The position numbers were made by a program, and so were the translations under genes. 39,093 nt of DNA. It comes from an archaeon (lineage in GTDB: Archaea; Nanobdellota; Nanobdellia; Woesearchaeales; GW2011-AR9). The notes beneath the pieces are model-generated. The model did no database searches, was not told the DNA's origin, and was given only the letters and a program-made list of their open reading frames with translations. Shown here in pieces: positions 2,244-23,599 of the stretch. The first letter of the stretch is position 1. Each line of letters begins with the position of its first letter. The stretch is taken from positions 1-39,093 of the forward strand of contig JABHQR010000017.1 in the NCBI GenBank assembly GCA_018696395.1, given 5' to 3'.

Positions 2244-2278
2244 AGTTATTTTAATTAATAATTGTTTTGGAAAAAAGT

Positions 2279-3535
2279 ATGGTGAATTTAACTGATAATT
2301 GCTTAGATTTTTCTCAAGAAGTCTATGAGCCAGCAGAAGATTCGTATTTATTACAGAAATCTGTTCGAAAATTAGCTTTTGGCAGAGTTCTTGATATGGG
2401 TACTGGGTCAGGTATTCAAGCATTTGAAGCTGTGGGATGTAAAGATGTTAGAACAGTCTTAGCTGTTGATGTTAATCCAAATGCAGTAAATATTTTGAAA
2501 AGTAAAGTTAAAAATGAACATATAAATAAACTAAGGGTGATTGAAAGTGATTTGTTTTCTAAAGTGGAAGGGCAGTTTGATACTATTATATTTAATCCGC
2601 CTTATTTGCCGCAAGATAAAGTGGGTGATAAGAAAATTAATGATCTGGCTTTGTATGGTGGAAAGAATGGTTATGAAGTTATTCAACGTTTTTTGAATCA
2701 GTCAGGTGAACATTTAGCACAAGATGGTGCTATTATATTATTGGTGTCTAATTTGTCGGGTTTAAGTAAAATTAAAGAAATAATTACATCTAACTTATTT
2801 GGTCATGAATTGCTTGAAGAAATCAGTTTACCTTTCTTTGAAAAGTTGTATGTTTACAAGATTTGGAACAGTGATGTTCGGAAGGCTTTAATTTCAAGAT
2901 CTGTGAGTAACATTTCTTTTTTAGCTAAGGGTCAAAGGGGTTTGGTTTTCAAAGGAAAATGGAAAAAGAATTCATTTGTAAAAACTCATCTTGCTAAAGA
3001 TGAAATAACTGATGTGGCAATAAAAATTGTTAATCCAAAAAGTAATATTGAATTCCGGATTGAAAATGAAGTTAATTGTTTGAAAAAATTAAATCGTGAA
3101 GGTATTGGTCCAAGATTATATTTTTATGGGCAAGGTTATTTTGTAATGGGTTTTTTGGAAGGTTTGAAGTTACCTGAATTTTTGGAATCTGAAAAAAAAT
3201 TAATATCTTCAGATAAATTGTCTGAAAAATCTAAATCAGTTTTAAAAGAAGTTTTGAGGCAATGTTATGTTCTTGACAAATTGGGTATTTCCAAGGAAGA
3301 GTTTCATCGGCCAATTAAACATGTCATGATCTCTGAAGATTTGAAAGTAACCTTACTGGATTTTGAAAGGTGTCACAATTCTGAGAAACCAAACAACGTT
3401 TCGCAATTTTGTACTTTTTTAGCCAAGTTAAATAGGATTAATTCTGAAGAATTGTTTGAACTTGCCGGGAAGTATAAAAAGAGTTATTCTATTGAAGATT
3501 TTAATTGTATTTTGGGTGCTGTTGAAAGAGCTTAA
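2279..3535 (+). CDS. HemK-like methyltransferase fused to a COG2112-type kinase-like domain
   Basis: The N-terminal half (about 1-200) is a class I SAM methyltransferase with the glycine loop DMGTGSGI near residue 42 and NPPYLP near 106, the signature of HemK/PrmC/Mtq2 enzymes that methylate glutamine in release factors. From about 205 to 375 follows a divergent protein-kinase-like region: a Gly-containing loop (KGQRGLVFKG), VAIK with the presumed ATP-binding Lys near 249, HRPIKHVMI in place of the HRD loop, and LLDFER in place of DFG. This matches the archaeal predicted Ser/Thr kinase group COG2112. The frame can be extended to a TTG at 2267, but ATG 2279 is preferred because it puts the usual short N-terminus before the YEPAEDSYLL motif. 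HemK enzymes are normally about 200 aa, so the fusion is clear. Whether the kinase is active is not known. Confidence 0.88.
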   Translation: MVNLTDNCLDFSQEVYEPAEDSYLLQKSVRKLAFGRVLDMGTGSGIQAFEAVGCKDVRTVLAVDVNPNAVNILKSKVKNEHINKLRVIESDLFSKVEGQFDTIIFNPPYLPQDKVGDKKINDLALYGGKNGYEVIQRFLNQSGEHLAQDGAIILLVSNLSGLSKIKEIITSNLFGHELLEEISLPFFEKLYVYKIWNSDVRKALISRSVSNISFLAKGQRGLVFKGKWKKNSFVKTHLAKDEITDVAIKIVNPKSNIEFRIENEVNCLKKLNREGIGPRLYFYGQGYFVMGFLEGLKLPEFLESEKKLISSDKLSEKSKSVLKEVLRQCYVLDKLGISKEEFHRPIKHVMISEDLKVTLLDFERCHNSEKPNNVSQFCTFLAKLNRINSEELFELAGKYKKSYSIEDFNCILGAVERA

Positions 3536-4190: not shown

Positions 4191-4608
4191 TTTATTGTGG
4201 TTGGTGGTTATATTTAAATTATTTTTGTTTTAAGACAAAACAAGCCATATATTTAGCTTAAATTAAGGTTTAGCTAACTTTTTACTTTGCTTTTTGATTT
4301 AAACAGAGCTTATAGTTAATATAGAACATAGTTCTAGTTGTAACTTTGGAATGGTGAACTGTTGAAAGCGCAAATATTTTTAGTTTCAGGCCTTGAAACT
4401 TTATTTGGGTTGGTTTCAACCTCCTATTTTGCGAAAAGCTTATAAACGACTCAGGGCTTTTTTGACTAAATAATAATCAATTCCTAACATATTTTCGTCT
4501 GTAAAACGAAAAAGGTCTTTCGGGATGGTGATGTCCTTTTCGAAATTTTTATCAGGCGAGCACATACGTGAGGAAAAGAGAGGATGAAAATAGGAGGTGT
4601 TTCATAAA
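4191..4608 (+). promoter_or_regulatory. Promoter, operator-like repeats and long leader of the S-layer gene
   Basis: This 418-base gap without a protein gene serves both neighbours. The helicase TATA box is at 4208-4220 (minus). For the S-layer gene, TTATAAAC at 4440-4446 is the best TATA box, placing transcription start near 4466 and giving a leader of about 140 nt. Just upstream are two inverted repeats: AGTTTCA-5-TGAAACT at 4382-4400 and GGTTG-GTTT-CAACC at 4408-4421. GTTTCA or its complement occurs three times in 36 bp. In the leader, CGAAAAAGG (4507-4515) can pair with CCTTTTCG (4535-4542). A strong SD, GGAGGTG at 4593-4599, precedes ATG 4609. Confidence 0.6.
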
Positions 4609-7080
4609 ATGAACACTATAAAAATATTAAAAAGACTTACAGCTGTTGCGGCAGGAGCTACAATGCTTGGTGCAACCATAATGGGTGCTGCAGCTGCAGA
4701 TTTGAGTAATTATCCAGATTCGTTTGTTTCAGATGGCGTATTCGATGGATATTTTGTTGTTGGTGAATCAGCTAGTTCAATGGATAACTTAGCTATGACT
4801 GACATCGCAACTAACATGTGGTACACTGCAGAAGGTGAAACTACAACAACAACTTTAAATGGAGACAGTTGGTTAGTAACTACATCTAGTAACTACTTAG
4901 AGTTAAGTGAAAACATTGCTTCTATTGCAAATTACATCGGTGATGATGAAATGGATGCATTAGCTGATGGCGAAATTTCAAACTCTAAAGGTACAGCTAG
5001 TTATGAACAGTTCTTGTATTTTGATGAAGCAAATGGTACTGTAACTTACCAAGAAGACGATGATGATAACATTGGTTTTTTCTACAAAATTGATAATTCT
5101 GATGTAATTGCGAGATATTATTTAGACTTTGGTGATTCATTAGAATCAGACATAACCTCTGGTAGTTTAGACGATATTGATGATGAAATCATAACTCTTT
5201 TTGGAGAAGAATATACAATCGTGACTGCTGAAAATACTAGTAACGGTGTTAAATTAACTCTTATGGGTGGTTCAGCTGCAGATACATTAAGTGAAGGCGA
5301 ATCTCAAACATACGACATCAATGGTGTTGAGTATGAAGTTGAATTGACTTTTACAGATGGAACAGATGCTCAGTTTAGTATTAATGGTGAAACAACATCT
5401 AAATTAGCTGATGGTGAAACTGATGTTCTTGAAGATGGTACGACTATTGGGGTAACTAGTATCTCATACCAATCTTATGCTGGTGGTATCCATACTGCAA
5501 CTTTCTTCGTTGGAGCTGACAAGATGGTTTTAGAACATGGTCAGTCTTTAAGTGTAAATGAAGAAAGTATCAGTGAAGCAATTGTAACAATAACTTCTAG
5601 CGAAGCTAGTTTGGATATCTCTATTGATGATATAGGGGTTAACATGACTGCAGATGATGATTACTATGTAGGTGTTGGTGATAAGTTAAGTGAAAACGCT
5701 GAATTGGACGAACCACAAGTATTATTCACTCAGAATTGGGATATTGAATTAGTTGGTGTAGATGTAGACTTTGTTGAAGAAGCTAGTTTAACTTTCTCTG
5801 AAGGGGATGACCAAGCAGATTTGAAATTAGAGTTATATGATGGTGAAGCATCTATCTCTTTAATATACCAGAATGAAACTGCTTTAGATGTTGTGTATAG
5901 TGGTGAAGATGATGATTCAAGGTTAATTTTAGAAGCTAATTCTACAATAACTGATGAAGATTACTTCTTTTTGAATACAGCTGATACAACCTCTTCAACT
6001 GCTGATGCAAAGAGTTATTTCTTGCAGTATAAAGGAGCGGATGATGTTAACGAGTCAAGTCCAAAAGTTAATATTAAGAATGTCATAACTGGTGAGACTT
6101 ATGAAAGAAGTTTAACTGTTTTATCTCATAATGCAACCACTTTTGATTTAAAGTTAGGGGGATTAACTTTTAACTTTAACGCAACAACAGGTGGGCAAGA
6201 TGATGATTTTGCAATTAGGTTGACTGATGCTGCAACAGGGTATAGTTATACTGATGCTTCCCATGATGCAAGGTTATCACTAAGAACTGCAGATAACAAT
6301 AAGGTTACTTTAGTGCAAAATTTGAATAACGAAACTGCTGGTGATTGGAATGTTGAGTATGTTGTAGATGATGCTGATAAGTTTGATGACTCAGATGTAA
6401 CTTCATATCTTGTTATGAATGCAACAATAACTGGGCAAAGTACTGGTGAGTTAAGTACTTCTGCCGGTGAAATGACTGCAAGTCAGTTAGTTGATTCAAG
6501 TGATTCGGATATTAGTTATTATCGGTCAAACTTTGGTGAGTCATTAGTTACAACTGATGCTGATAGTAGTCCGACTAAGTATGAGTTATCTTTGCCAAGT
6601 ACACAGGCTGAAGTTCAGTTATACATAACTTCTGGAGCTACCACAAGTACATCTTCAAGTGATGGAACTTTAACTCAAGTACAAATTGTTGATGCTACCA
6701 AGCTAGACAGTGAAGTATCAAGTTTAAGTGCACAGAACTTAATTGTTGTTGGTGGTCCATGTGTTAACACTGTAGCAGCTGACTTATTAGGTAACCCAAG
6801 TGATTGTACTGAAGGATTCACACCTGGAGTAGCTAGAGTTAAGATGGTTGACAATGGTGATTACATGGCTATGCTTGTTGCTGGTTACAGTGGCGATGAT
6901 ACAAGACTTGCAGGACAAGTACTATCTCATAATTATGAGAATGGTGGATTGTCAGGTGAAGAAGTAGAAATCGAAGGTACAACCTACAGTGATGCAACAG
7001 TTAGTGAACCTACTGAAGAAGTTGTTGAAGAAGTAGTAGTAGAAGAAGAAGCAACTGAAGAAGTAGTAGCTGAGGAATAA
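4609..7080 (+). CDS. S-layer protein
   Basis: Major surface-layer protein, 823 aa from ATG 4609. GTG 4597 in the same frame lies inside the SD and is rejected. An N-terminal signal peptide has Lys/Arg at about 4-9, then an Ala/Gly/Met hydrophobic core, with likely cleavage after about Ala30. The mature N-terminus (NYPDSFV...YFVVGESASSMDNLAMTDIA) and the region from about 707 (NLIVVGGPCVNTVAADLLG ... LVAGYSGDDTRLAG) match the Methanococcus-type S-layer family (TIGR01564-like). Two Cys near 715-730 could form a disulfide. At least eight N-X-S/T sites are visible (for example NTS, NST, NES and several NAT and NET), so it is a natural substrate for the adjacent AglB. The product is strongly acidic, ends in a Glu/Val-rich tail, and has no C-terminal membrane anchor. 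Confidence 0.9.
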   Translation: MNTIKILKRLTAVAAGATMLGATIMGAAAADLSNYPDSFVSDGVFDGYFVVGESASSMDNLAMTDIATNMWYTAEGETTTTTLNGDSWLVTTSSNYLELSENIASIANYIGDDEMDALADGEISNSKGTASYEQFLYFDEANGTVTYQEDDDDNIGFFYKIDNSDVIARYYLDFGDSLESDITSGSLDDIDDEIITLFGEEYTIVTAENTSNGVKLTLMGGSAADTLSEGESQTYDINGVEYEVELTFTDGTDAQFSINGETTSKLADGETDVLEDGTTIGVTSISYQSYAGGIHTATFFVGADKMVLEHGQSLSVNEESISEAIVTITSSEASLDISIDDIGVNMTADDDYYVGVGDKLSENAELDEPQVLFTQNWDIELVGVDVDFVEEASLTFSEGDDQADLKLELYDGEASISLIYQNETALDVVYSGEDDDSRLILEANSTITDEDYFFLNTADTTSSTADAKSYFLQYKGADDVNESSPKVNIKNVITGETYERSLTVLSHNATTFDLKLGGLTFNFNATTGGQDDDFAIRLTDAATGYSYTDASHDARLSLRTADNNKVTLVQNLNNETAGDWNVEYVVDDADKFDDSDVTSYLVMNATITGQSTGELSTSAGEMTASQLVDSSDSDISYYRSNFGESLVTTDADSSPTKYELSLPSTQAEVQLYITSGATTSTSSSDGTLTQVQIVDATKLDSEVSSLSAQNLIVVGGPCVNTVAADLLGNPSDCTEGFTPGVARVKMVDNGDYMAMLVAGYSGDDTRLAGQVLSHNYENGGLSGEEVEIEGTTYSDATVSEPTEEVVEEVVVEEEATEEVVAEE

Positions 7081-7204: not shown

Positions 7205-10200
7205 GTGGCAGAAGATATTATAATTGAAAATTTAAATTCAAAACCAAAAAAAGAAGAAAAACAAGAACTTAATGTTCAAGATTCTAACAATGTTGTAATT
7301 GAAGGATTAGATAATTCAAATGAAAATCATGATGTAAATTTAGAACAAAACAATCCAAAAATCAAAATTGATTCCAATCAAGAAAATATTTCAGAACAGC
7401 CTAAAATTGAAGTAGTTGAATCTGGAACTTCTAGGCATTTTAAAGAAGAAGATGAAAAAGATGATATTTTTGGTGAAAAAAATGTTGATGATGATTTTTC
7501 ATTTGATTTTTCTGAAATAAAAAATAAATTGAAAAATTTATTTTCAAAAAATGTTACTGAAAAAGATACAACTTCAACAGATATCAAGAAAGAAGAATCT
7601 GACCTTTCATTCGATTTTACAAAAATAAAAACTTTTGCTAAAACTAATTACAAATGGTTAATTCCACTTTTATGTATTTTATTTGTAATGTCAGTTTCTA
7701 TGTATCTTAGGGTAATGCCTTTGTCAATGCCAATTGCAGAACAATGGGCAGAAGATACAGTGATGAACTTTTATCAAAATCAAATCGGTGGCAGTGTTGT
7801 AGAACAATATCCTAACCTTCCAGAAGCCAATCTTAATGCTTTAATTCAGCAAGAGTTGACAACGTTTTTGGAGGATAATAGTGCGCAGATTGATTCAGAC
7901 ATTGCTTCGTTAGCTGAACAATATCGTAATCAATACAAAAACAGTGATGGGACTTTATACTTGTTAGGTTTAGATCCTTGGCATTATATGAGTCAAACTG
8001 GGTATATTTTAGAGAATGATTATCCTGGGACTTCTATAAGTGAAGAAGGGGAATTTATTGATGATTATAGGTTAGCCCCATTGGGTGTAAGTGGGGAATT
8101 GAATTTTCATGTGTGGTTTGGAACTTTATTACACAAAGTGTTAAATATTTTTTCAGTGTTACCTATAATGTTTACATTTTTCTTTGTGGGGGTAATTTTT
8201 TCAGCGTTAGCAGTTATTCCTGCTTTCTTTATTGGAAAAAGAATTACTGGAAATAATGTTGGTGGGTTTTTTACTTCTTTACTAATTGCAGTTTCTGCAT
8301 ATTTTGTTCAAAGAACAACTGGTGAAAGTTCAGATACTGACGTTTATACTGTCTTTTTCCCATTACTTATTACTTGGCTTTTTTTAGAAGCTTTTGAAGC
8401 TGAAAATTTGAAGAAAAAATTAGGTTTAATTTCTCTCGCAGGTTTAGTAACAGGAATTTTTAGTTTTGCTTGGACTGGCTGGTGGTATGTATTTGATTTT
8501 ATAATTGCAACAATCAGTTTATATTTAATCTATTTAGCAGTTATTAACTTTAAAAATATTAAAGAATTTGTTAAAACTAATGATTTTTTAAGTTTAATTT
8601 ATTTAGCTATTACTTATGTTTTCACTTCAGCAATCTTTGTAAGTTTATTTAATTCATTTAGTTTATTTACAAACTCTGTATTTGGACCTTTTAATTTTAT
8701 AAGATTAAAAGAAGTAGCAGTAACTTCAGTTTGGCCAGAAATTTATACTACTATTGCTGAACTTAATGTTGCTCCTTTTTCTCAAGTAATCGGTTTATTA
8801 GGTGGGAAATTACTGTTTGTTCTAGCGATTTTAGGTGTTTTATTAATTATTTTCACTAAAAATAAAAAAGGTGAAAGAAATATTGAAGTTGCAATATTTT
8901 TAACTATTTGGTTCATTGCTTCATTTTATGCAACAACTAAAGGGGTAAGATTTGTTTTACAAGCAACACCTGTATTAGCTATTGGGTTAGGTGCATTTAT
9001 GGGAATTACTTGGGATTATGCAACTAAGTGGGTTAATAAAGAATTGAAATTAAACAAATTACTTGCAAGTTCAACAATATTTTTAATTTTAATGTTGTTA
9101 ATGATTCAACCGATTCAAGCAGGTTATGCTTCAGCATATAGTTCAGTACCTTCAATGAATGATGGGTGGTTTGACACTCTTGAAAAAATTAAGTATGAAG
9201 CACCAGAAGATATCATTATTACTTCTTGGTGGGATTTTGGTTATTGGTTTAGGGCTATTGCAGACAGGCCTGTAACATTTGATGGTGGTACTCAAGTTGG
9301 CCATGGCGCATACTGGGTTGGTCAATCACTTTTAACCGACAATGAACAGACAACTGCTGGGATTTTAAGAATGTTAAATTGTGGTCAGAATACTGCTTTT
9401 GAAGAACTTGATTTAATTATTGATAATACTGCAACTTCTGTTAAAATTATTGAAGAGATAATTCTTTTAAGTGATACTGAAGCGAAACAATTTTTAACAA
9501 ATGATTATAGTTTAACTGATGAAGAAGCAGAAAATGTTTTATCATACACTCATTGTGATGCTCCAACAGATTATTACATTACTTCTAGTGATATGGTAAG
9601 TAAAGCTGGTGTTTGGGGTCATTTTGGTAGTTGGAATTTTGAAAAAGCTATGATTTATCAAGATATTAATGGTCTTACTCAAAATGATGCAATTAATTAT
9701 TTGATGGAAAATTATGGTATGTCTGAGGAAGATGCAGATCAAACTTATTATGAAGTTCAAACAACTGATGCAGATTATTGGATCTCTGGATGGCCATCAT
9801 ATTATTCATCATTATATTCTTGTGATAATGGTGATGAAGAAAATATTTTGATATGTTCAATGAATACTGTTCAGGGTGCAATGTCATTTGAAATAGATTT
9901 AATTACGATGGATACAATAGTTTATTCAAATTCAGAAACTAATCTTCATCCAGATACTTTAGTTTATGCTGATGAAAACGGTTTGAATGAATTGGTGTTT
10001 GAAAATAATACTATTGGGATGTCGTTGATTCTTATTCCATCAAGTTCTGGTGACTCTTATTCAGCATTAGTTTCAGATCCATTATTAGCATACAGTACTT
10101 TTACCAAATTATTTTATTTTGATGGGCATGGAACAATTTGTTTTACCCAATTTGATGAAACTGAACAATTTACTGGTGGGAAAATTTCAACATGGATTGT

Positions 10201-10642
10201 TGATTATGAATGTCAGCAAGAAAATGAAGTTTTAATGCAACCAGTAGGTACTACAACGACAGAAGATACTTCTGATGATACTGATGTGGTTGATGATTCA
10301 ACTGATATTGATAGTGGTCTTGAAAGTATTGGGACCGTAAGTGAAATGGTAGAAGCATCACACATTTTAATTATGACAGATACCAGGACAGATGAAGAAG
10401 CATTAGAATTAATAGGTTCTATCCTAGGGACTGTTACTGCAGAAACTTTTGCTGATTATGCTGAAGAATATTCAGAAGGTCCTTCTTCAGTTAATGGTGG
10501 TGAATTGGGTTGGTTTGGTAAAGGTCAAATGGTTTCAGAATTTGAAGATGCAGCATTTGCATTAGAAATTGGCGAAATTTCTGAGATAGTAGAAACTCAA
10601 TTTGGTTATCATTTGATTTATGTTAGTAACAAAACTGGTTAA
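7205..10642 (+). CDS. aglB: AglB oligosaccharyltransferase with C-terminal parvulin domain
   Basis: STT3/AglB enzymes transfer a lipid-linked glycan to Asn in N-X-S/T on the outer face of the membrane. Family motifs are all present: DPWHY (D257, first acidic motif), DTD at 377-379 (second acidic motif), TIAE at 516-519 (external loop 5), WWDFG at 675-679 (acceptor binding) and the DxxK motif DMVSK at 796-800. About a dozen membrane segments lie between 150 and 640. Two parts are unusual. Residues 1-145 form an acidic, hydrophilic, presumably cytoplasmic extension. Residues about 1048-1145, after an Asp/Thr-rich linker, form a parvulin-type prolyl isomerase domain with ASHIL at 1051, GGELGWFGKGQMV at 1098-1110 and FGYHLIYV at 1133. 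It sits outside the cell if the AglB C-terminal domain does. Start is GTG 7205 with its own SD. Confidence 0.95.
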   Translation: MAEDIIIENLNSKPKKEEKQELNVQDSNNVVIEGLDNSNENHDVNLEQNNPKIKIDSNQENISEQPKIEVVESGTSRHFKEEDEKDDIFGEKNVDDDFSFDFSEIKNKLKNLFSKNVTEKDTTSTDIKKEESDLSFDFTKIKTFAKTNYKWLIPLLCILFVMSVSMYLRVMPLSMPIAEQWAEDTVMNFYQNQIGGSVVEQYPNLPEANLNALIQQELTTFLEDNSAQIDSDIASLAEQYRNQYKNSDGTLYLLGLDPWHYMSQTGYILENDYPGTSISEEGEFIDDYRLAPLGVSGELNFHVWFGTLLHKVLNIFSVLPIMFTFFFVGVIFSALAVIPAFFIGKRITGNNVGGFFTSLLIAVSAYFVQRTTGESSDTDVYTVFFPLLITWLFLEAFEAENLKKKLGLISLAGLVTGIFSFAWTGWWYVFDFIIATISLYLIYLAVINFKNIKEFVKTNDFLSLIYLAITYVFTSAIFVSLFNSFSLFTNSVFGPFNFIRLKEVAVTSVWPEIYTTIAELNVAPFSQVIGLLGGKLLFVLAILGVLLIIFTKNKKGERNIEVAIFLTIWFIASFYATTKGVRFVLQATPVLAIGLGAFMGITWDYATKWVNKELKLNKLLASSTIFLILMLLMIQPIQAGYASAYSSVPSMNDGWFDTLEKIKYEAPEDIIITSWWDFGYWFRAIADRPVTFDGGTQVGHGAYWVGQSLLTDNEQTTAGILRMLNCGQNTAFEELDLIIDNTATSVKIIEEIILLSDTEAKQFLTNDYSLTDEEAENVLSYTHCDAPTDYYITSSDMVSKAGVWGHFGSWNFEKAMIYQDINGLTQNDAINYLMENYGMSEEDADQTYYEVQTTDADYWISGWPSYYSSLYSCDNGDEENILICSMNTVQGAMSFEIDLITMDTIVYSNSETNLHPDTLVYADENGLNELVFENNTIGMSLILIPSSSGDSYSALVSDPLLAYSTFTKLFYFDGHGTICFTQFDETEQFTGGKISTWIVDYECQQENEVLMQPVGTTTTEDTSDDTDVVDDSTDIDSGLESIGTVSEMVEASHILIMTDTRTDEEALELIGSILGTVTAETFADYAEEYSEGPSSVNGGELGWFGKGQMVSEFEDAAFALEIGEISEIVETQFGYHLIYVSNKTG

Positions 10643-10743: not shown

Positions 10744-12543
10744 ATGTTAAATAAACAATTTGAAAAATTAAAAAGTAAAATCAAAAATTTTACTTGGCAA
10801 GATTGGTCATTAATATTTTTAATTTTGGTAGTTTTTACTTTTTATTTTGGTTTAATGTCTAATCTAGAACATTTACCTAGCCCTATTTTTGGTGGTGATT
10901 ATTATCGAGATAGGGGTTTTGTTCAAAATATTATTGAAGGGAATCCTATCTGGTCAGATGGTTTTTATCTTAATGAAATACAATATTATCCTTATTTAGT
11001 TTTTGTAATGGAAGCTTTTATTGTTATGTTAACTGGTTTGAGTGTTGATACTGTGTTTCTATTTTTTCCTTTATTAGCTTTAATATTGTCGGCAATATCT
11101 TGGTATATGCTTGGAAAAACTTTATTCAAAAATAAAACTTTGGCGTTAACTACTGTGTTTGCTATGTTTGCTATAATGTTTTTCTATCCCTTTAAATCTT
11201 CTTCAATGGGTTATTTAGTATTAATACCTCTATTTTTTCACTTTTGGATTAAATATGAAATTAATTTTAAGAGAAGTTATGCCATTTGGGCAGGTATCAT
11301 TTTAGGTTTAATATCTCATGTACATGGTGGTCGGTTTTTAGCTACTTTCGGAACTGTGGGTTTAGTTATCCTTTATTTGTTCTTTAAAGATTGTTACAAA
11401 CAAAAGAAAGAGTTAGGTATTAAAAATAGTTTGATAAGTAATCTGGTGAATTACTTTAAAAAATATTATTTAATAATCTTAATTGCAGTTGGTATTTCAA
11501 TGATTTATTTCTTACCATTAATAATCAAATATAATTTTCATTCAGTAAACAATGTTACAGTTTGGGGGGATACTAGTGTTGAGTATTTGGGGTTAAGTTG
11601 GGCTTTAAATTCAATAAAATCAATGTTTTTTAACACTGGCAATTTGTTCTATCTAATAACTGGATTAATTTCATTATTGGGTTTTTTAATTTTATTATTT
11701 TCAAAGAAAAGTAAAGAACTTTCATTTATTCCTCTTTTATTTATTTCTAATTTTATTGTATTAGAACATCATTTAATTACTAGGCCTTTAATGGATTATT
11801 GGTTTAATCCTTCTAAATTGTATCTGTTGGGTTTTTTCATGCCAGTATTTTTTGTTGTAGGGGTTATTTTTATTGCAAAACAGATACTCAAAAAAATTAA
11901 TTATAATCATGTTGCAATAGGGATAATAATTTTATTATTAATTCCTAGCATCTATTTGAAATATGATGGTTTCTCTGAAAGCCAATGGGTATTATATGGG
12001 ATGGAAGAAAGTGAATATATTGATGAGTTATACTATTTAGGTGATTGGATGTCATCACATGTTACTAACTATGAAACAATATTAAGTAATGATGAAACTG
12101 GATTTATGTTAGCGATGGTATCTGGTAAAAAAGTAATGTTAACAAGACGTACACATGCAAGTTATTTTATTGATATTGATCAAAGAATTGCTGAAGCTTC
12201 GGTTGCAATGTATGGTGATAATCTTAATGAAACATTAAGGGTATTAAATGAGTATGATGTCAATTATTTATATTTAGATACTTACCTTTTATCATCTCCA
12301 ATGAGGGTTAGGCCAGATTTAGCAGAATATTTGGATGATTATAATATTGAGTATGAAGAAGTTTATGATCGGTATGATGTGGCAGTTCCACCAGAATCAG
12401 CTTATATGCAAGATTTACTTTTAATATCTCCTCTGAATATTACTGAAACTTTTTTGGATTTATGGGATAAAGTTTATGTTGTTGAAGTTGAAGGTAGTGT
12501 TGTTGCAGAAATGTATGAATTAAAAGAAGAGTATCAGAATTAA
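10744..12543 (+). CDS. GT-C-like multi-pass membrane protein, 599 aa
   Basis: About 11-12 hydrophobic segments follow a short basic cytoplasmic start. The first extracytoplasmic loop contains FGGDYYRDRG (D52, R55, D56), an acidic motif placed as in GT-C glycosyltransferases that use polyprenyl-phosphate sugars. A soluble C-terminal part of about 190 residues follows the last membrane segment, again as in GT-C enzymes. The likely role is a membrane glycosyltransferase acting on the S-layer glycan, given aglB upstream and glycan genes downstream. The exact family and substrate are not recognised. GGTG at 10736-10739 lies just before the ATG. Only 53 nt separate its stop codon from the preferred start of the next gene. 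Confidence 0.7.
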   Translation: MLNKQFEKLKSKIKNFTWQDWSLIFLILVVFTFYFGLMSNLEHLPSPIFGGDYYRDRGFVQNIIEGNPIWSDGFYLNEIQYYPYLVFVMEAFIVMLTGLSVDTVFLFFPLLALILSAISWYMLGKTLFKNKTLALTTVFAMFAIMFFYPFKSSSMGYLVLIPLFFHFWIKYEINFKRSYAIWAGIILGLISHVHGGRFLATFGTVGLVILYLFFKDCYKQKKELGIKNSLISNLVNYFKKYYLIILIAVGISMIYFLPLIIKYNFHSVNNVTVWGDTSVEYLGLSWALNSIKSMFFNTGNLFYLITGLISLLGFLILLFSKKSKELSFIPLLFISNFIVLEHHLITRPLMDYWFNPSKLYLLGFFMPVFFVVGVIFIAKQILKKINYNHVAIGIIILLLIPSIYLKYDGFSESQWVLYGMEESEYIDELYYLGDWMSSHVTNYETILSNDETGFMLAMVSGKKVMLTRRTHASYFIDIDQRIAEASVAMYGDNLNETLRVLNEYDVNYLYLDTYLLSSPMRVRPDLAEYLDDYNIEYEEVYDRYDVAVPPESAYMQDLLLISPLNITETFLDLWDKVYVVEVEGSVVAEMYELKEEYQN

Positions 12544-12596
12544 AAAAATGTGGGGAAGATGCCCTTATGTTGATTAATAGGGGTGTTATGTTTAAA

Positions 12597-13538
12597 ATGA
12601 AAAAAATTGTTATCACTGGTGCAACTGGGTTGGTTGGATTTAATCTGTTAAGTATTATTGATGGGGATAAATATAATATTATTGCAATAGATAAAAATAA
12701 AAATAATCTGAAATTGGGAAAAAAATTGTTTCCCAAAGTTAATTTTGTCCATGCTGATCTATCTGAAATAGATGACTCTTGGATTGATTTAATTAAAGAA
12801 TCTGATTGTGTGATCTCTTTACATGCTCAAATTTCTTCTCCTCAAAAAGACCCTTACATTAAAAATAACGTTGGTGCTACTAAAAATTTAATTAAAGTAT
12901 GTGAAAAAAATAAAGTTAATAATTTTATATATTTCAGTTCTTCTGTAGTTATCTCTGTTGCTGATGATCATTATACTAACACTAAAAGAGACGGGGAAAA
13001 TTTAGTTAAAAATTCTAATTTAAATTATACTATTCTTCGTCCACCTTTGATGTATGGCTGTTTTGATGTTAAACATTTAGGATTCATGGCAAAATTGATG
13101 GATGTTAGCCCTATTTTTCCAGTGCCAGGGTCTGGAAAGTATATGCGCCAACCATTATATGTTTTAGATATTTGTAAAATTGTTTTAAAAATAATTGAAC
13201 TAGAACCAGAAAATAAGATTTATAATATCATTGGCAAAGAAAAAATTAACTTCATTGATTTGTTAAAGATAATTGCTCAAGAAAGAAAAATGAAAAGATT
13301 ATTTTTTAAAATTCCAATTCCTGTGTTTCTTTTTTTACTAAAAATATTTGGGTTGTTAACCAGTAAAAAACCTTTTGTACCTGAACAATTAACTGCTTTA
13401 ATGGCTGGAGATGATTTTCCACTGAGTAATTGGGAAGAAACATTTAAAATAAAGTATACTCCTTTTAGAGAAGCAATTAAAGAAACAATTAATTCAGAAT
13501 ATTATCCTTATCGAAAAAAGATGATTAAAACAAAATGA
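12597..13538 (+). CDS. Extended SDR, NAD-dependent sugar epimerase/dehydratase family
   Basis: The Rossmann motif TGATGLVG begins seven residues after Met at 12597, followed by acidic patches for NAD binding. A downstream HYTNTK carries the catalytic YxxxK, and SSSV provides the Ser. The frame can be extended to ATG 12567 or 12588, but 12597 gives the normal N-terminus, and GGGGTG (12580-12585) lies at SD distance. About 313 aa, normal for extended SDRs. It probably modifies a nucleotide- or lipid-linked sugar. Its stop overlaps the next start by four bases (ATGA), so it is translationally coupled to the FAD oxidoreductase. The substrate cannot be read from the sequence. Confidence 0.85.
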   Translation: MKKIVITGATGLVGFNLLSIIDGDKYNIIAIDKNKNNLKLGKKLFPKVNFVHADLSEIDDSWIDLIKESDCVISLHAQISSPQKDPYIKNNVGATKNLIKVCEKNKVNNFIYFSSSVVISVADDHYTNTKRDGENLVKNSNLNYTILRPPLMYGCFDVKHLGFMAKLMDVSPIFPVPGSGKYMRQPLYVLDICKIVLKIIELEPENKIYNIIGKEKINFIDLLKIIAQERKMKRLFFKIPIPVFLFLLKIFGLLTSKKPFVPEQLTALMAGDDFPLSNWEETFKIKYTPFREAIKETINSEYYPYRKKMIKTK

Positions 13539-14800
13539 AAAAGAAATTAATTATATTAGGCGGTGGATTGTCTGGTTTAGCGGCAGCAGAAAAATTATCT
13601 TTGAAGTATGATATAACAATAATCGAAGCAGCACCTTTTTTAGGAGGTTTAGCGTCTAATTTTGAAAAAGATGGTAAGTTTATACCAAGATATTATCATC
13701 ACATAATTAAAAGTAATAAAACTACACAAGAATATGTTAAAAATTTTGGTGAAGTGGATTCTAAAAAATTAAAATGGCAAAAAATTAAAATTGCGATAGG
13801 ATTTAAATCAAAATTGTTTAATATTAGCGAAATACTTGGTCTTTTGAAATTTAACTATCTTAATTTGTTTGAAAAGTTTAGATTTGGAACATTTGGGTTA
13901 TACACTCTTTTTTTAATGAATCCAGATAACATTGATGAAAATTTAGACGCTGAGAAGTGGTTGAACAAATATGCTGGGAAAAATGTTACTAAGAAAATTT
14001 TTCATAATTTATATTCTAGAAATAAATTTAATATTCCTTTAAGTAGGATCTCTGCAAAACAATTTGCTAATAGGTTATTTGAAAAAGAAATTTATGATTA
14101 TTTTACTTTTCCAGAAGGTGGTTATCAGAAGATGATTGATAACCTTCAGTCAAAAATTGAATTAAGTGGGGGAAAGATTATGTTAAGTACTAAGCCAGAT
14201 TCAATTGATTTAATTGAAAAAATCATGAAAATTGATGGTAAGGAGATTAAGTATGACCTTTTGATTAATAGTATTCCTTTCCAAGAATTTGTGCCTATCA
14301 CTAAAGGTCTCCCTGAAGAATTTAAAAACCAAATTTTAAAGATTAAATATTGTCCCGCAGTTAGTATCTGTTTTGCAACTGAGCAATTTCTTGATAAAAA
14401 AAATTATTGGATTAATTTGTTTGATGAAAGAGCACATATCGTTATGCAACATTCAATCCTTAATGATACTTATAGTGAAAAAATTAGTTGGTGTCTTAGG
14501 TATGGTGGAAGTGAAGAGGATTTAGAATTAAGTGAAGAACAGATTAAACAAGATTATACTGAAGTTGTGAAAAAATACTTTCCTCAATGTAAAATTAATT
14601 GGGTAAAGGTAATGAGAACAAAATATGGTGAGCCAATTTATGACATTGATTATCATAAATATATGCCTGGGTATAAAACCCCTATTGAAGGTCTTTATTT
14701 TACTGGTATTCAGTTAACTCATCCTAAGATCAGGAATATGAACGTGGCATTGGAGTCTGGAGTTAAGGTTGCAGAAATTGTGTTGAATGATAACCAGTAA
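13535..14800 (+). CDS. FAD-dependent oxidoreductase (HemY/amine-oxidase-like)
   Basis: A dinucleotide-binding fold opens the protein (IILGGGLSGLAAAEKL) with Glu at the end of the second strand (IIEAAPFLGGLASNF), and a typical FAD-binding C-terminus (LYFTGIQLTHPKIRNMNVALESG) closes it. This is the arrangement of COG1232 NAD(P)/FAD oxidoreductases (protoporphyrinogen oxidase, UDP-galactopyranose-mutase-like and polysaccharide-locus relatives). Length 421 aa is normal. In glycan clusters such proteins often accompany an SDR and a GT2 enzyme, and here the SDR overlaps it by four bases. A redox step on a sugar or on the polyprenol carrier is plausible, but the substrate is unknown. Confidence 0.82.
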   Translation: MKKKLIILGGGLSGLAAAEKLSLKYDITIIEAAPFLGGLASNFEKDGKFIPRYYHHIIKSNKTTQEYVKNFGEVDSKKLKWQKIKIAIGFKSKLFNISEILGLLKFNYLNLFEKFRFGTFGLYTLFLMNPDNIDENLDAEKWLNKYAGKNVTKKIFHNLYSRNKFNIPLSRISAKQFANRLFEKEIYDYFTFPEGGYQKMIDNLQSKIELSGGKIMLSTKPDSIDLIEKIMKIDGKEIKYDLLINSIPFQEFVPITKGLPEEFKNQILKIKYCPAVSICFATEQFLDKKNYWINLFDERAHIVMQHSILNDTYSEKISWCLRYGGSEEDLELSEEQIKQDYTEVVKKYFPQCKINWVKVMRTKYGEPIYDIDYHKYMPGYKTPIEGLYFTGIQLTHPKIRNMNVALESGVKVAEIVLNDNQ

Positions 14801-14811
14801 ATTGTAAATTA

Positions 14812-14818
14812 TTTTTTT
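14812..14818 (+). terminator. Poly-T terminator after the FAD oxidoreductase gene
   Basis: Seven T residues 11 nt after the stop, followed by further T-rich sequence to about 14838, end the preceding operon before the next promoter. Confidence 0.45.
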
Positions 14819-14871
14819 CATTTATCTATTTTTCTTTTAATGAGTTATGTTTAAGTATATAATTCACAAAT

Positions 14872-14879
14872 TTTATAAG
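14872..14879 (+). promoter_or_regulatory. TATA box of the GT2 gene
   Basis: TTTATAAG is centred 29 nt before ATG 14905, and there is no SD, so the transcript should be leaderless or nearly so. Confidence 0.5.
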
Positions 14880-14904
14880 CAGTATTCTTAAGAATAAGTT
14901 AGTT

Positions 14905-15579
14905 ATGAAAATTTACATAGTTATTGCTGCATTTAATGAAGAAAAGAAAATCTCTTCTGTAATCAAAAACCTTCAAGAAGAAGGTTATAATCACATAATT
15001 GTGGTAGATGATGGTTCTAAAGATAAAACTTATGATCAAGCAAATTCTACTGGTGCAATTGTCCTTAAACATGTTATTAATCGTGGTCAAGGAGCAGCAT
15101 TAAAAACTGGGATTGATTATTCAGTAGATCAAGGGGCAGAAATTTTAGTAACTTTTGATGCTGATGGTCAACATGATGCTAAACAAATTAAAAAATTAAT
15201 TAATCCCCTTATTGAAGAAAAGGCAGAAGTCGTTTTAGGAAGTCGTTTTTTAGATGATAGTTCTAACACTCCACCATTAAGAAAATTTTTTCTTAAAACT
15301 GGGGCTTTTATATTTAGGATAATGTACGGTGTAAAATTAACTGATTCTCATAACGGATTTAGGGCATTATCAAGAAAAGCAGCGCAAGAAATTAATTTAT
15401 CTCAAGATAAAATGGAACATGCTTCTGAAATTGTAGAAGAAATTGGCAAACATAAATTAAAATATCTAGAAGTTCCAGTTACAATTACTTATACAGATTA
15501 TTCTTTACAACATGGTCAAAGAACAAGTAATGCATTTAAAATATTTTTTAAGATGATACTTAAAGCATTTTTGAAATAA
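14905..15579 (+). CDS. GT2 glycosyltransferase, dolichol-phosphate mannose synthase type
   Basis: The GT-A fold shows AAFNEEKKI near the start, VVDDGSKDKT for nucleotide binding and TFDADGQHD with the metal-binding DxD, then SRFLDD. The family (DPM1-like; archaeal AglD/AglJ relatives) moves a sugar from a nucleotide donor onto a polyprenyl phosphate on the cytoplasmic face. At 224 aa it consists of the catalytic domain alone, without C-terminal membrane segments. The product would be the donor for the GT-C enzymes in this window. A T-rich spacer separates it from the flippase-like pair that follows. Confidence 0.88.
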   Translation: MKIYIVIAAFNEEKKISSVIKNLQEEGYNHIIVVDDGSKDKTYDQANSTGAIVLKHVINRGQGAALKTGIDYSVDQGAEILVTFDADGQHDAKQIKKLINPLIEEKAEVVLGSRFLDDSSNTPPLRKFFLKTGAFIFRIMYGVKLTDSHNGFRALSRKAAQEINLSQDKMEHASEIVEEIGKHKLKYLEVPVTITYTDYSLQHGQRTSNAFKIFFKMILKAFLK

Positions 15580-15658
15580 ACCTTTATTTTATAATTCTTA
15601 TTAATCGTGGTAATTAAAATAGGAAGATATATTAACTTTTAACAAATAAGTTGATAAT

Positions 15659-16018
15659 GTGAATAATAATCTTAAAGGAATTATTGGTATGGTTATATGT
15701 ACTTTACTTGTAGCTATTGGTCAGTTTTTTCTTAAGAGGGGGGTTGAAATTTTCAATTTATCATTAATCTCAATAATAACAAATTATTGGTTGATTATTG
15801 GATTATTTATGTATTTTATTGCTTCCATTCTTTTAATTAAAGCTTTAAAATTAGGCGATTTATCAGTGGTGTTTCCTTTCGTTTCTTTAAGTTATGTTTG
15901 GGTGGCAATTGGATCAATGTTAATTCTATCAGAAGTTATGACTTTCATTAATTGGGGGGGAATTTTAAGTATTTTATTAGGGGTATTTTTGTTAGGTAAG
16001 GGTGGTTTAAATGCTTGA
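15659..16018 (+). CDS. Small EamA/SMR-family membrane protein (first of a pair)
   Basis: 119 residues with four hydrophobic helices, the size and pattern of EmrE-like or ArnE/ArnF-like proteins. GDLSVVFPFVSLSYVWVAIGSMLILSE is typical of the third helix region in this superfamily. The start is GTG 15659; the nearby ATG at 15657 is in another frame. A G7 run lies at 15954-15960. It overlaps the next gene by eight bases, so both are probably made together and may form a heterodimer. Lying directly after a dolichol-phosphate-sugar synthase, the pair is a candidate flippase for lipid-linked sugars, like ArnEF for lipid-linked aminoarabinose. Confidence 0.78.
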   Translation: MNNNLKGIIGMVICTLLVAIGQFFLKRGVEIFNLSLISIITNYWLIIGLFMYFIASILLIKALKLGDLSVVFPFVSLSYVWVAIGSMLILSEVMTFINWGGILSILLGVFLLGKGGLNA

Positions 16019-16352
16019 AATGTTATTATTTATTGTAATAATGATAATCAGTACTTTTTTTGGAGCATTAGGTTCACTTAAATTCAAAAGAGCAGCAAAT
16101 AATTCTCAATCTCTCTTTTTTTTAATAAAAAATGTTGATTTTTATATAGGTGGGATCTTATTTTCTATTGCATTTGGAACATATTTGTTGATACTAAATA
16201 AAGGCGATTTATCTTCATTATTTCCTTTAACTTCAATAACTTATGTTTGGACTTGTATCTTATCAGTTAAGTATTTGAAAGAGAAAATGAATTTTATGAA
16301 ATGGTTAGGCATATTTTTTATTATGTTAGGTGTTTTCTTGGTTGCTTTGTAA
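16011..16352 (+). CDS. Small EamA/SMR-family membrane protein (second of a pair)
   Basis: 113 residues and four hydrophobic helices. The third-helix motif NKGDLSSLFPLTSITYVWT aligns by eye with the same region of the preceding protein, so the two are paralogues. The genes overlap by eight bases. Paired SMR proteins work as antiparallel heterodimers in known cases. Here transport of a lipid-linked sugar is the likely job, by context only; a drug-efflux role cannot be excluded from sequence. Confidence 0.78.
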   Translation: MLEMLLFIVIMIISTFFGALGSLKFKRAANNSQSLFFLIKNVDFYIGGILFSIAFGTYLLILNKGDLSSLFPLTSITYVWTCILSVKYLKEKMNFMKWLGIFFIMLGVFLVAL

Positions 16353-16412
16353 TTTTGATCAAATAAAATCTGGAGTTGAATGAACTAAATTAAAATTTAA
16401 TAAAAAAATAAC

Positions 16413-17477
16413 TTAGAAAAACCATCTAACTATGGATAAAATCCCTTGTTTCCATGGTACTCTATGTGAAACTCCAGTTTTATTCTCATACTCTTTATAA
16501 TTTTCTAAGTACCACTTATAATTGTCAATTAATGCTTGTTTGTTAGAATATTTTGGAGCATAACTTAACTGTTTTTCAGCTTTTTCAATTGAAACAAAAG
16601 AATCTTCGGGGGCAGTTTCGTAAACCCATTTGTATAAAGGGGACAAGTGTAACCATTCTAATATTCTTAATACTAAAATTAACGGTTTTGCAGGAGTTCC
16701 AATAATTTTTTTACCAAATCCAGCATAGTCAGTAACTGCACCGAAATCTTCTTTCATGGTGGTATATTCCTTTGCTCCAATGTTAAAAGTGTCATTTACT
16801 ATCTCTTTATCTTTAGTTGCACATAGATAAATAGCATCACATAAATCTCTTACATCTAAGAGTTGATATCTATTTTTACCCCATCCCACGATTGGAATAT
16901 TCTTACCTCTTCTAATCCAATCATAATATATTGCAAAAACACCTAATCTTTCTGGACCTACAAACGATTTTGGTCGTATGATGGATATACACATCCCTTT
17001 TTCACGATAATCAGTACAAACTTTTTCTGCTTTGATTTTAGAAATGCCATACGCACCGACTCCATCGAGTTTATCATTTTCAAATAATGGGTGATGGTCC
17101 GGAATTCCATATACTGCTGTGCTTGAAATGTGAATCATTCTGTTAACATTATTTTCATGGGCTGCTTTGATAACATTTTCAGTTCCATTAATATCAGTTG
17201 AATAAATCTCTTTTTCAGTGTATAATGGTAATGCTGCTGCACAATGAATCACTATATCAACATTTTTCATGGATTCTTTTAGTAATTCAAAGTTTCTAAT
17301 GTCTCCTTTGATAATTTCAACATTTTTTGTTTGTTCTTTTTCTGGATAATCAAAATCTACTAAATCAAATGATTTTATTTTATGACCTTTATCTAAAAGA
17401 AATCTAATTAAGTTGATCCCTAAAAATCCAGATCCTCCAGTAATGAAGTATGTTAAGGGTTCTGTTTTATGTTCCAT
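16413..17477 (-). CDS. Extended SDR, nucleotide-sugar epimerase/dehydratase family
   Basis: TGGSGFLG near residues 13-20 binds NAD. SSTAVYG supplies the catalytic Ser region and YGISK the YxxxK. The C-terminal half is longer than usual, and the product is 354 aa. A TATA-like element at 17501-17510 (minus strand) is 28 nt from the ATG, so this is a stand-alone, probably leaderless gene, ending in a T7 run at 16398-16404. It probably works on a nucleotide sugar; the closest feel is the 4-epimerase/3-beta-HSD-like group, but the substrate is not readable. Confidence 0.85.
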   Translation of the reverse strand: MEHKTEPLTYFITGGSGFLGINLIRFLLDKGHKIKSFDLVDFDYPEKEQTKNVEIIKGDIRNFELLKESMKNVDIVIHCAAALPLYTEKEIYSTDINGTENVIKAAHENNVNRMIHISSTAVYGIPDHHPLFENDKLDGVGAYGISKIKAEKVCTDYREKGMCISIIRPKSFVGPERLGVFAIYYDWIRRGKNIPIVGWGKNRYQLLDVRDLCDAIYLCATKDKEIVNDTFNIGAKEYTTMKEDFGAVTDYAGFGKKIIGTPAKPLILVLRILEWLHLSPLYKWVYETAPEDSFVSIEKAEKQLSYAPKYSNKQALIDNYKWYLENYKEYENKTGVSHRVPWKQGILSIVRWFF

Positions 17478-17604
17478 TTTTAATTAAAACAGATTTTATT
17501 AAATATAAAGTTATCTATTGTTGGTTATAATTTTTATAAATTCATAACTATTATAAATAAGCTTTTTTTTTTAATAAGTTAAAGAAAATCAATTTGTGTT
17601 TTAA

Positions 17605-17928
17605 ATGGAAATCATTCAATATTTAATATTTATATTTGGAATTTTTGCAATAAGTAGATCTATCCTTAGACTTAAATCTAAATCAATTAGTAAATTAGAA
17701 TTTTTATTCTGGTTAGGTATCTGGTTGACAGTAATAATTTTAGGGTTGTTGCCAAATTTTACTACTTTTTTCTCTAGTATTCTTGGTATTGAAAGGGGAG
17801 TTGATGCTATAATCTATGTTAGTATAATCGCACTGTTCTATTTACTATTTAGGTTATATGTGAAAGTTGATGAAATAAATTTGGAAATCACTAAATTAGT
17901 CAGAGAACTAGCTAAGAAAAGAAAATAA
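17605..17928 (+). CDS. DUF2304 family membrane protein, 107 aa
   Basis: Three hydrophobic helices followed by a short charged, coiled-coil-like tail (KVDEINLEITKLVRELAKKRK). This is the layout of DUF2304 proteins, which commonly lie beside GT2 polyprenyl-phosphate sugar synthases and may help anchor them. The next gene, a GT4 transferase, starts only four bases after its stop. TTATAAATA at about 17551-17559 is a likely promoter. Biochemical role unknown. Confidence 0.75.
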   Translation: MEIIQYLIFIFGIFAISRSILRLKSKSISKLEFLFWLGIWLTVIILGLLPNFTTFFSSILGIERGVDAIIYVSIIALFYLLFRLYVKVDEINLEITKLVRELAKKRK

Positions 17929-17931
17929 CAA

Positions 17932-19077
17932 ATGGATAAAATGAAACAAAAATTCTTATTACTAACAGAATATTTTCCTGAATCAGAAAATGCAGAAATA
18001 ACTGGAGGTGTAGAAAATAGGTGTTTCAATATAGTTAAATTTCTATCCTCAAAATATGATGTTAAGGTTATTTGTTCTAGGCAACAAGGTCAGATAAAAC
18101 ATTCTAGTGTATTTGGTTGTGATGTGTTTAGGGTTGGTCCAGAAATTTCTTATTCTAGTAAAGGTGATTTAATTAAAAGATTTATGTTTGCATATTCTGC
18201 TTATAAATTAGCAAAAAAGCAAAAAGATGTTGATTTAATAGAAGCAGAATCATTCTTAACCTATTTACCTACATACTTTGCAGGAAAAAAAATTAAAGCT
18301 AAAAAAATTGCAACTTGGCACGAAACATGGGTTGGTGAATGGATAAAAAATAAAGGTTTTGTAACTGGTCTTTTTGGAGAAATATGGGAAAGATTTAGTA
18401 TTAAATTAAATTGGGATATGGTGATTTCGGTAAGTAATTTCACTAAAGAAAGATTATTAGAGAGAAAGATTAAATGTAAAAATATTAAAGTAATACCAAA
18501 CGGTATTGATTTTGATAAAATTGAACAAGTAAAAATATCTCATTCTGATGAAGTGGGTAAAATTAAAAGAATTTGTGTAGTTGGTAGATTAACCCCTATG
18601 AAAAGAGTGGATATTATAATCAATGCATTTTCAAAATTAATTAAAGAAACTCCTCGTTTGGAATTAAATATTGTTGGATCAGGACCAGAATTAGAAAATT
18701 TAAAAAAGATAGTAAATAATCTTAATTTATCTGAAAAAATTATTTTTCATGGATTTATAGAAAAATATGAGGACGTTATTAAAATAATGAAATCTTCAGA
18801 TTTTTATGTATCTGCTTCTGAGTTAGAAGGATTTGGTATAACAGTTTTGGAAGCAATGGCTTGCAATTTACCAGTAATCCTTTCTGATATTAAACCTTTT
18901 AGAGAAATTAGTGAAAATAAAGCTATTTTTTTTGAAGATGTTAATCAACTTTACAAAGCATTAAATTTTATTATGGCGCATAATGAATTAAATAAAGAAC
19001 AACTTAAAAAACAAAGTAAATTATTATCTAAATATCATTGGGATGAAATCATAAAAAAAGGTTATGATCTTTGTTAA
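17932..19077 (+). CDS. GT4 family glycosyltransferase
   Basis: GT-B glycosyltransferase of 381 aa. The C-terminal donor half has VIPNGIDFDKI, VVGRLTPMKRVDIII and the E-x7-E motif in ELEGFGITVLEAMA. The N-terminal half has the usual GGVENR loop after the first strand. Retaining GT4 enzymes add mannose, glucose or similar sugars from GDP- or UDP-donors onto lipid-linked acceptors in the cytoplasm. It is co-transcribed with the DUF2304 gene. GDP-heptose or GDP-mannose would be reasonable donors, but nothing in the sequence decides this. Confidence 0.88.
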   Translation: MDKMKQKFLLLTEYFPESENAEITGGVENRCFNIVKFLSSKYDVKVICSRQQGQIKHSSVFGCDVFRVGPEISYSSKGDLIKRFMFAYSAYKLAKKQKDVDLIEAESFLTYLPTYFAGKKIKAKKIATWHETWVGEWIKNKGFVTGLFGEIWERFSIKLNWDMVISVSNFTKERLLERKIKCKNIKVIPNGIDFDKIEQVKISHSDEVGKIKRICVVGRLTPMKRVDIIINAFSKLIKETPRLELNIVGSGPELENLKKIVNNLNLSEKIIFHGFIEKYEDVIKIMKSSDFYVSASELEGFGITVLEAMACNLPVILSDIKPFREISENKAIFFEDVNQLYKALNFIMAHNELNKEQLKKQSKLLSKYHWDEIIKKGYDLC

Positions 19078-19085
19078 TTATTAAA

Positions 19086-20693: not shown

Positions 20694-21039
20694 AGAAAAA
20701 TTAATTCGAGAAAGTAAATATCTGATAATTTGTTTTTGTTTATTGATGCTTTCTTTTAAAATTGTTTTTTATAAAGAAAGTTTAATAGTTATCATAAGAA
20801 TAATTTTTTCTTTATATTGGATGTTTATTTTACCTGGGTTGAGTTTGATGTACATTTTTAATGATAAACTTAATTTTTTTGAAAGATTAGTGGTTGGTAT
20901 TGCGGTAAGTTCAGCAATTTTAGGTATTTTAAGCTATTATTTAGCTTTATTTGGTTTTCATGTAAATAATCACGTTTATTTTATCCCTCCTTTAATAGTT
21001 TTAATTTCCATTATTGTTTATTTTTATAAGAAAAAGTAA
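20674..21039 (+). CDS. Small membrane protein, DUF1616-like, 121 aa
   Basis: Three to four hydrophobic segments with LPGLSLMYIF and FFERLVVGIAVSSAILGIL, a pattern seen in DUF1616-type proteins and in the N-terminal part of some polysaccharide-locus membrane proteins. The frame opens at GTG 20674, overlapping the previous gene by 20 bases. TTG 20686 is a plausible alternative, with GGTGGTGAT just before it acting as SD. It probably forms part of the GT4/GT-C operon. Its separate function is unknown. Confidence 0.6.
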   Translation: MVIVLSKEKLIRESKYLIICFCLLMLSFKIVFYKESLIVIIRIIFSLYWMFILPGLSLMYIFNDKLNFFERLVVGIAVSSAILGILSYYLALFGFHVNNHVYFIPPLIVLISIIVYFYKKK

Positions 21040-21117
21040 TTTATTTTCATATAATGTATTTAATTTGCATAATACTTAAAAATGAAATAATCAATTTAAT
21101 GTTAATAACAAGTATGT

Positions 21118-21126
21118 AAATATTTT
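21118..21126 (+). promoter_or_regulatory. TATA-like element of the second GT4 gene
   Basis: An A/T block (ATATTTTTAAGAG) centred about 30 nt before ATG 21152; no SD is visible, so a leaderless start is likely. Confidence 0.35.
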
Positions 21127-21151
21127 TAAGAGATAAATTAAGTGATGTTCA

Positions 21152-22294: not shown

Positions 22295-22341
22295 TATATC
22301 AATTTGAAATATTGTAACATAACAAAAATTAAGGGGATTAA

Positions 22342-23583: not shown

Positions 23584-23599
23584 AGAGGATTAAATAAAA

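Follow-up and report, generated by a model that had tools for sequence, protein, structure and literature searches.

In the window (the whole 39,093-nucleotide stretch of Woesearchaeales DNA analyzed here), we found an AglB/STT3 oligosaccharyltransferase (OST) that continues behind its C-terminal domain into a parvulin prolyl isomerase. This AglB–parvulin architecture is certain for the window protein; the enzyme family is a known one, and the arrangement is new and has evolved repeatedly. With relatives that carry parvulin or FKBP domains in the same place, we lean slightly toward the view that the OST of Woesearchaeota repeatedly turned bifunctional, adding folding to glycosylation through interchangeable parvulin and FKBP modules at one fixed extracytoplasmic site. 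Selection would then have favored an isomerase at the point of glycosylation, making these proteins a one-chain counterpart of eukaryotic OST plus FKBP11.

Architecture of the fusion protein

The features of the protein, delimited by hydropathy, Pfam matches, homologs, alignment columns, composition and a structure model, are as follows.

7205–10642, + strand: AglB/STT3 oligosaccharyltransferase–parvulin fusion, 1145 aa, GTG start
7205–7645, + strand: N-terminal tail, acidic, disordered and predicted to be cytoplasmic, residues 1–147, preceding transmembrane segment TM1 (148–175)
7487–7534, + strand: tail motif copy 1, DDDFSFDFSEIKNKLK, residues 95–110 (motif count)
7595–7642, + strand: tail motif copy 2, ESDLSFDFTKIKTFAK, residues 131–146, just before TM1 (motif count)
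7646–9139, + strand: multi-TM STT3 region, residues 148–645 (hydropathy, Pfam STT3, invariant alignment columns)
9140–10213, + strand: AglB C-terminal globular domain, predicted extracytoplasmic, residues 646–1003 (STT3-PglB_core, model, hydropathy)
9227–9241, + strand: WWDFG sequon-binding motif, residues 675–679 (columns invariant in the AglB alignment)
10214–10342, + strand: flexible acidic linker, residues 1004–1046 (composition, pLDDT)
10343–10639, + strand: parvulin prolyl isomerase domain, residues 1047–1145, with His1053 and His1136 (Pfam, homologs, Foldseek)

Translation of the open reading frame (ORF) gave no internal stops. Pfam assigned STT3 (PF02516) to residues 236–634 (E = 6.3e-39, 135 bits, cutoff 24.5), STT3-PglB_core to residues 672–725 (E = 8e-8, above the curated cutoff), Rotamase_3 (PF13616) to residues 1045–1143 (E = 6.3e-27, 94.9 bits, cutoff 22.5) and Rotamase (PF00639) to residues 1053–1141 (E = 1.9e-22, 80.5 bits, above the curated cutoff). 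These STT3 and Rotamase matches in one ORF bear out the preliminary description, which had read an AglB–parvulin fusion from short motifs, all of them present in this frame, and had pointed to the two rotamase families for the last ~100 residues. Acidic residues D257, D377, D379 and E519 of the STT3 region are invariant in the AglB alignment. Against TIGR04154, the AglB of the archaeosortase A system, the fusion scored 54.8 bits, below the cutoff of 450. Hydropathy placed the first TM segment at residues 148–175 and the last at 614–644, with none in the C-terminal domain beyond. The 44 residues between AglB core and parvulin contain 12 D/E and no K/R, confirming the acidic linker noted earlier, and the parvulin domain is itself acidic (20 D/E, 3 K/R).

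PrsA foldases were the sequences most similar to the parvulin domain, and NmPin was among its close matches. All 25 fused parvulin domains described below have the two catalytic histidines (His1053 and His1136) and the hydrophobic-pocket residues Phe1113 and Phe1133, and 23 of them keep Met1109, likewise a pocket residue. The third catalytic position, Gly1092 in the window protein, is Gly in seven of the 25 and Asp in the remaining 18. Parvulins usually have Asp or Cys in this position, which is variable, and the fold requires neither. Gly1092 lowers confidence in isomerase activity and leaves parvulin family membership unaffected; judged from its family, the fused domain is quite probably an active isomerase.

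The acidic N-terminal extension (36 D/E and 21 K/R in residues 1–148) had been considered unusual, a claim that did not hold, as tails of ~25–250 residues are common on AglB proteins of the order, fused or unfused. A tail motif approximating D-E-x-S-[IF]-D-F-S-x-I-K was counted in 69 of 123 AglB tails versus two of 2505 other ORFs and occurs, sometimes in two copies, in proteins such as L034, L072 and L085; this cytoplasmic motif could be a docking site. Other AglB variants were observed as well. Several unfused proteins (L133, L134, L137, L142 and L068) have long acidic C-terminal tails of 50–90 residues, several of them rich in N-x-S/T and, by topology, outside the cell. The window's family also contains a second, strongly diverged AglB type without an isomerase domain (L077–L083; 922–1010 aa, STT3 profile score about 120–140).

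Predicted structure and topology

In an AlphaFold2 model of the window protein, built with an alignment of 22 sequences, OST and parvulin were both well predicted, with confidence values of 77–94 over most of the parvulin. Residues 1–102, 109–136 and 1012–1045 were modeled as disordered, with pLDDT below 50 over most of 1–136 and at 1012–1045. In Foldseek, the model matched structures of PglB (E = 1.6e-19) and AglB (E = 1.3e-13), and its parvulin part separately matched PrsA (TM-score 0.84 on the target). The model thus shows an OST fold and, on a flexible tether, a separate parvulin fold, the outcome that had been predicted, with His1053 and His1136 both present.

In AglB proteins, the C-terminal domain is established to lie outside the cell. 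Because no TM segment follows this domain in the window protein, the parvulin should be outside as well; by this argument from the AglB family, the extracytoplasmic location already suggested for the isomerase is very likely.

Recurrence of the parvulin fusion

The window genome (1.38 Mb, 98.9% complete, 24 contigs) contains one STT3 and one parvulin, both in ORF 7205–10642, no cyclophilin and two FKBPs, neither of which has a signal peptide. The fusion is, therefore, the only PPIase of this genome that looks exported. Across the order, AglB–parvulin fusions were detected in 25 genomes from at least seven families, comprising 17 genomes of the window's family, six other families and two further named Woesearchaeota/Nanoarchaeota genomes. 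All 12 parvulin-bearing genomes in our first sample of the window's family have the parvulin on a long ORF, and among the matches listed for genomes sampled from other orders of the class, parvulin ORFs were at most 448 aa. Parvulin dN/dS in four close pairs was about 0.15, 0.20, 0.04 and 0.12, showing that purifying selection maintains the domain. Fragmentation of the window genome into 24 contigs might raise the suspicion of an assembly or annotation artifact, but 25 genomes, stemming from many studies, have the same open frame on different contigs and under purifying selection, which refutes this explanation and leaves it a negligible probability. Recurrence in related genomes, named earlier as support for a real architecture, is, thus, found, and the fusion is not confined to this assembly.

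Between the final strand of the AglB C-terminal domain and the parvulin lie typically 8–22 residues, and 44 in the window protein. Such close placement is what one would see if the isomerase were an intramolecular helper that assists AglB's own C-terminal domain in folding or assembling, but close AglB relatives such as L091 share the core domain, lack the isomerase and evidently manage, making this role very improbable.

FKBP domains at the same site

Three AglB proteins without parvulin carried ~121 extra C-terminal residues, identified by Pfam as FKBP_C (PF00254; 54–77 bits, cutoff 21.1). FKBPs and parvulins are unrelated in sequence, and their folds resemble each other. A search of 353 genomes of the order with this FKBP domain gave strong matches on AglB-length ORFs, and the fusion is present in about 40 genomes. 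All 40 loci examined, from 11 families, combine STT3 with FKBP, and 39 are single open frames, the exception being L228 with a frame break. The FKBP assignment of relatives such as L154 and L215–L254 is based on scores above the cutoff, obtained for the three initial members, and on the active-site residues Tyr, Asp and Phe, which are almost invariant over the 40 fusions. A model of an FKBP fusion likewise consisted of an OST and a separate FKBP, the latter with a Foldseek match to FKBP13. A few residues separate the FKBP from the final strand of AglB's C-terminal domain, which is the place occupied by parvulin elsewhere. This use of an unrelated isomerase family at the same position suggests a physical coupling of sugar attachment and folding outside the cell. 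FKBP fusions were found in none of 55 genomes from another order of the class, for which there was no positive control; no cyclophilin–AglB fusion was seen among the matches listed, the longest cyclophilin open frame being 442 aa.

These data also bear on a non-catalytic role, in which the isomerase fold would be a peptide-binding or docking arm that holds chains or recruits partners. Gly1092 at the Asp/Cys position of the window parvulin would fit such an arm, as would human FKBP11, seemingly an adaptor at OST-A with a buried catalytic site (PMC12804085). The retention of both histidines and the pocket phenylalanines in every parvulin fusion, and of the Tyr, Asp and Phe residues in the FKBP fusions, argues against it, and we consider a purely adaptor-like module improbable.

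Evolutionary history of the fusions

On a tree of 121 AglB cores, the parvulin fusion required 12 changes, ten of them forced by supported branches, and the FKBP fusion six, of which five were forced. One sister pair joins a parvulin-bearing (L125) and an FKBP-bearing AglB (L237) with 98% SH-aLRT support. Because about half of the examined AglB proteins in the order lack any isomerase domain and presence of the parvulin changed at least ten times on the tree, this domain is not essential to AglB function. The FKBP domains of the fusions group as a single clade that excludes the sampled free FKBPs, with the exception of one partial free sequence of uncertain placement. This pattern suggests a single origin of the FKBP fusion followed by loss or exchange. 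The parvulin domain tree was weakly resolved, with fused and free domains partly mixed, and the window's parvulin clustered with domains from other families, not with the 16 of its own family. An exchange of this domain is possible. The domain is too short, and its tree too weakly resolved, for a count of parvulin-fusion origins.

Exported cyclophilins in unfused relatives

Exported lipoprotein cyclophilins are common in relatives without a fusion. In raw counts for the window's family, an exported cyclophilin is present in two of the 12 fused genomes and in 16 of the 18 others (p about 1e-4); over the whole tree, the association between cyclophilin and fusion was not significant (ten independent pairs, median p 0.69). 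Replacement of the exported cyclophilin by the fusion, thus, fails tree correction and is a lead at most. Almost all Woesearchaeota cyclophilins (L259–L311) are exported and many have a lipobox; the cyclophilins of the fused genomes G070, G047 and G227 have no signal peptide.

The family-level counts and the free cyclophilins that many unfused relatives have instead would agree with a need for any extracytoplasmic isomerase, met here by a general envelope foldase for which AglB is merely an exported membrane anchor without a link to glycosylation. The long, flexible linker of the window protein is also in line with this alternative. We consider it unlikely, given that two mutually unrelated isomerase families both landed on AglB, out of all the anchors available, and that the cyclophilin association is not significant after tree correction.

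Genomic neighborhood

Three neighbors of the fusion gene are relevant here.

4597–7080, + strand: S-layer-like protein gene directly upstream of aglB, 827 aa (PF05124, 46.6 bits)
10744–12543, + strand: multi-TM membrane protein, 599 aa, without a Pfam match, also beside aglB in L096
14905–15579, + strand: GT2 glycosyltransferase, whose homolog is the commonest aglB neighbor in the order

The preliminary description had placed an S-layer gene with many sequons upstream of aglB and had hinted at its product as a substrate. The gene itself stands by its PF05124 match; the many sequons do not, as ten were counted versus 8.9 expected by chance. With these chance-level sequons, only nine prolines in 827 aa and an adjacency shared by just one other examined locus (L076), whose AglB has no parvulin, the S-layer protein is not supported as the specific client.

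Downstream of aglB, a cluster at 10744–24583 contains NAD-dependent epimerases, an amine-oxidase-type flavoprotein, GT2 and GT4 glycosyltransferases, a nucleotidyltransferase–HAD fusion and a GHMP kinase, and probably makes the lipid-linked glycan. No free isomerase genes were found near aglB in unfused loci. Elsewhere in the window, a 422-aa ORF (2267–3535) combines a small methyltransferase domain (residues 26–166) with a weak protein-kinase match (218–382), and two adjoining half-size EamA ORFs (15659–16352; 119 and 113 aa, 8-base overlap) resemble a paired small transporter.

Proposed function

Whether N-glycosylation and folding are coupled at the translocon, and by what means, is an open question that in eukaryotes is obscured by the many separate subunits and recruited factors. 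In our preferred model, the single OST of the cell would carry a prolyl isomerase permanently tethered on the extracytoplasmic face. As an exported polypeptide leaves the translocon, the AglB part would move the lipid-linked glycan onto sequons, while the parvulin on its flexible arm would grip the same unfolded chain and catalyze or chaperone prolyl isomerization, such that the chain remains competent for glycosylation and then folds fast. In relatives, the FKBP module at the same site would do the same job, and the conserved element would be the presence of an isomerase at the OST, whichever family it belongs to.

We judge it reasonably likely that the fusion is such a bifunctional OST–foldase acting on nascent exported chains. 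Action of the isomerase on AglB clients is the most likely reading, with similar, moderate confidence. From the combined data, we infer a coupling between glycosylation and folding, a view strengthened by the occurrence of FKBP, an unrelated family, at the same site. Several points weigh against the model: about half of the examined AglB proteins do without an isomerase domain, the parvulin came or went repeatedly on the AglB tree, unfused loci have no free isomerase gene near aglB, the neighboring S-layer protein has only nine prolines, and the active site of human FKBP11 is buried, with its authors arguing against isomerization of nascent chains (PMC12804085).

With two enzymes in one chain and two unrelated isomerase families, the coupling becomes testable with a single gene, and the fusion is a candidate tool for better glycosylation of recombinant proteins.

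Comparison with known systems

To our knowledge, no solved AglB or PglB structure contains a prolyl isomerase domain. Our literature search, which did not extend to most subscription journals, returned no paper on AglB–parvulin, AglB–FKBP or archaeal OST–parvulin fusions, and a survey of archaeal PPIases does not mention AglB and reports no parvulin in Nanoarchaeota (PMC8530231). The window protein shares the STT3 fold, the DxD and WWDxG motifs and the combination of a multi-TM region with an extracytoplasmic C-terminal domain with Archaeoglobus fulgidus AglB (PDB 7e9s) and Campylobacter PglB (PDB 5ogl). Unlike these OSTs, it has a prolyl isomerase behind the C-terminal domain.

The isomerase has separate counterparts. 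PrsA foldase lipoproteins of Gram-positive bacteria, the best match in sequence and fold, are extracytoplasmic membrane-bound parvulins but have no glycosyltransferase attached. A precedent for the proposed function is NmPin from Nitrosopumilus maritimus, an archaeal parvulin that is active, sits at the outer face of the membrane and is linked by its authors to S-layer folding (PMC4922055). The fused domain is closely similar to NmPin (PDB 2m08), likewise an archaeal parvulin outside the membrane; whereas NmPin stands alone as a single-domain protein that a lysine patch holds to lipids, the domain reported here is a covalent part of an OST and acidic instead of lysine-rich. A second precedent comes from human cells, where the secretory translocon recruits FKBP11 next to OST-A (PMC12804085). 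Both systems place a prolyl isomerase beside the OST, on the membrane side to which proteins are exported, but FKBP11 is a membrane protein of its own that is recruited together with the ribosome, whereas the Woesearchaeota isomerase, a parvulin in the window protein and an FKBP in relatives, is fused to the OST itself.
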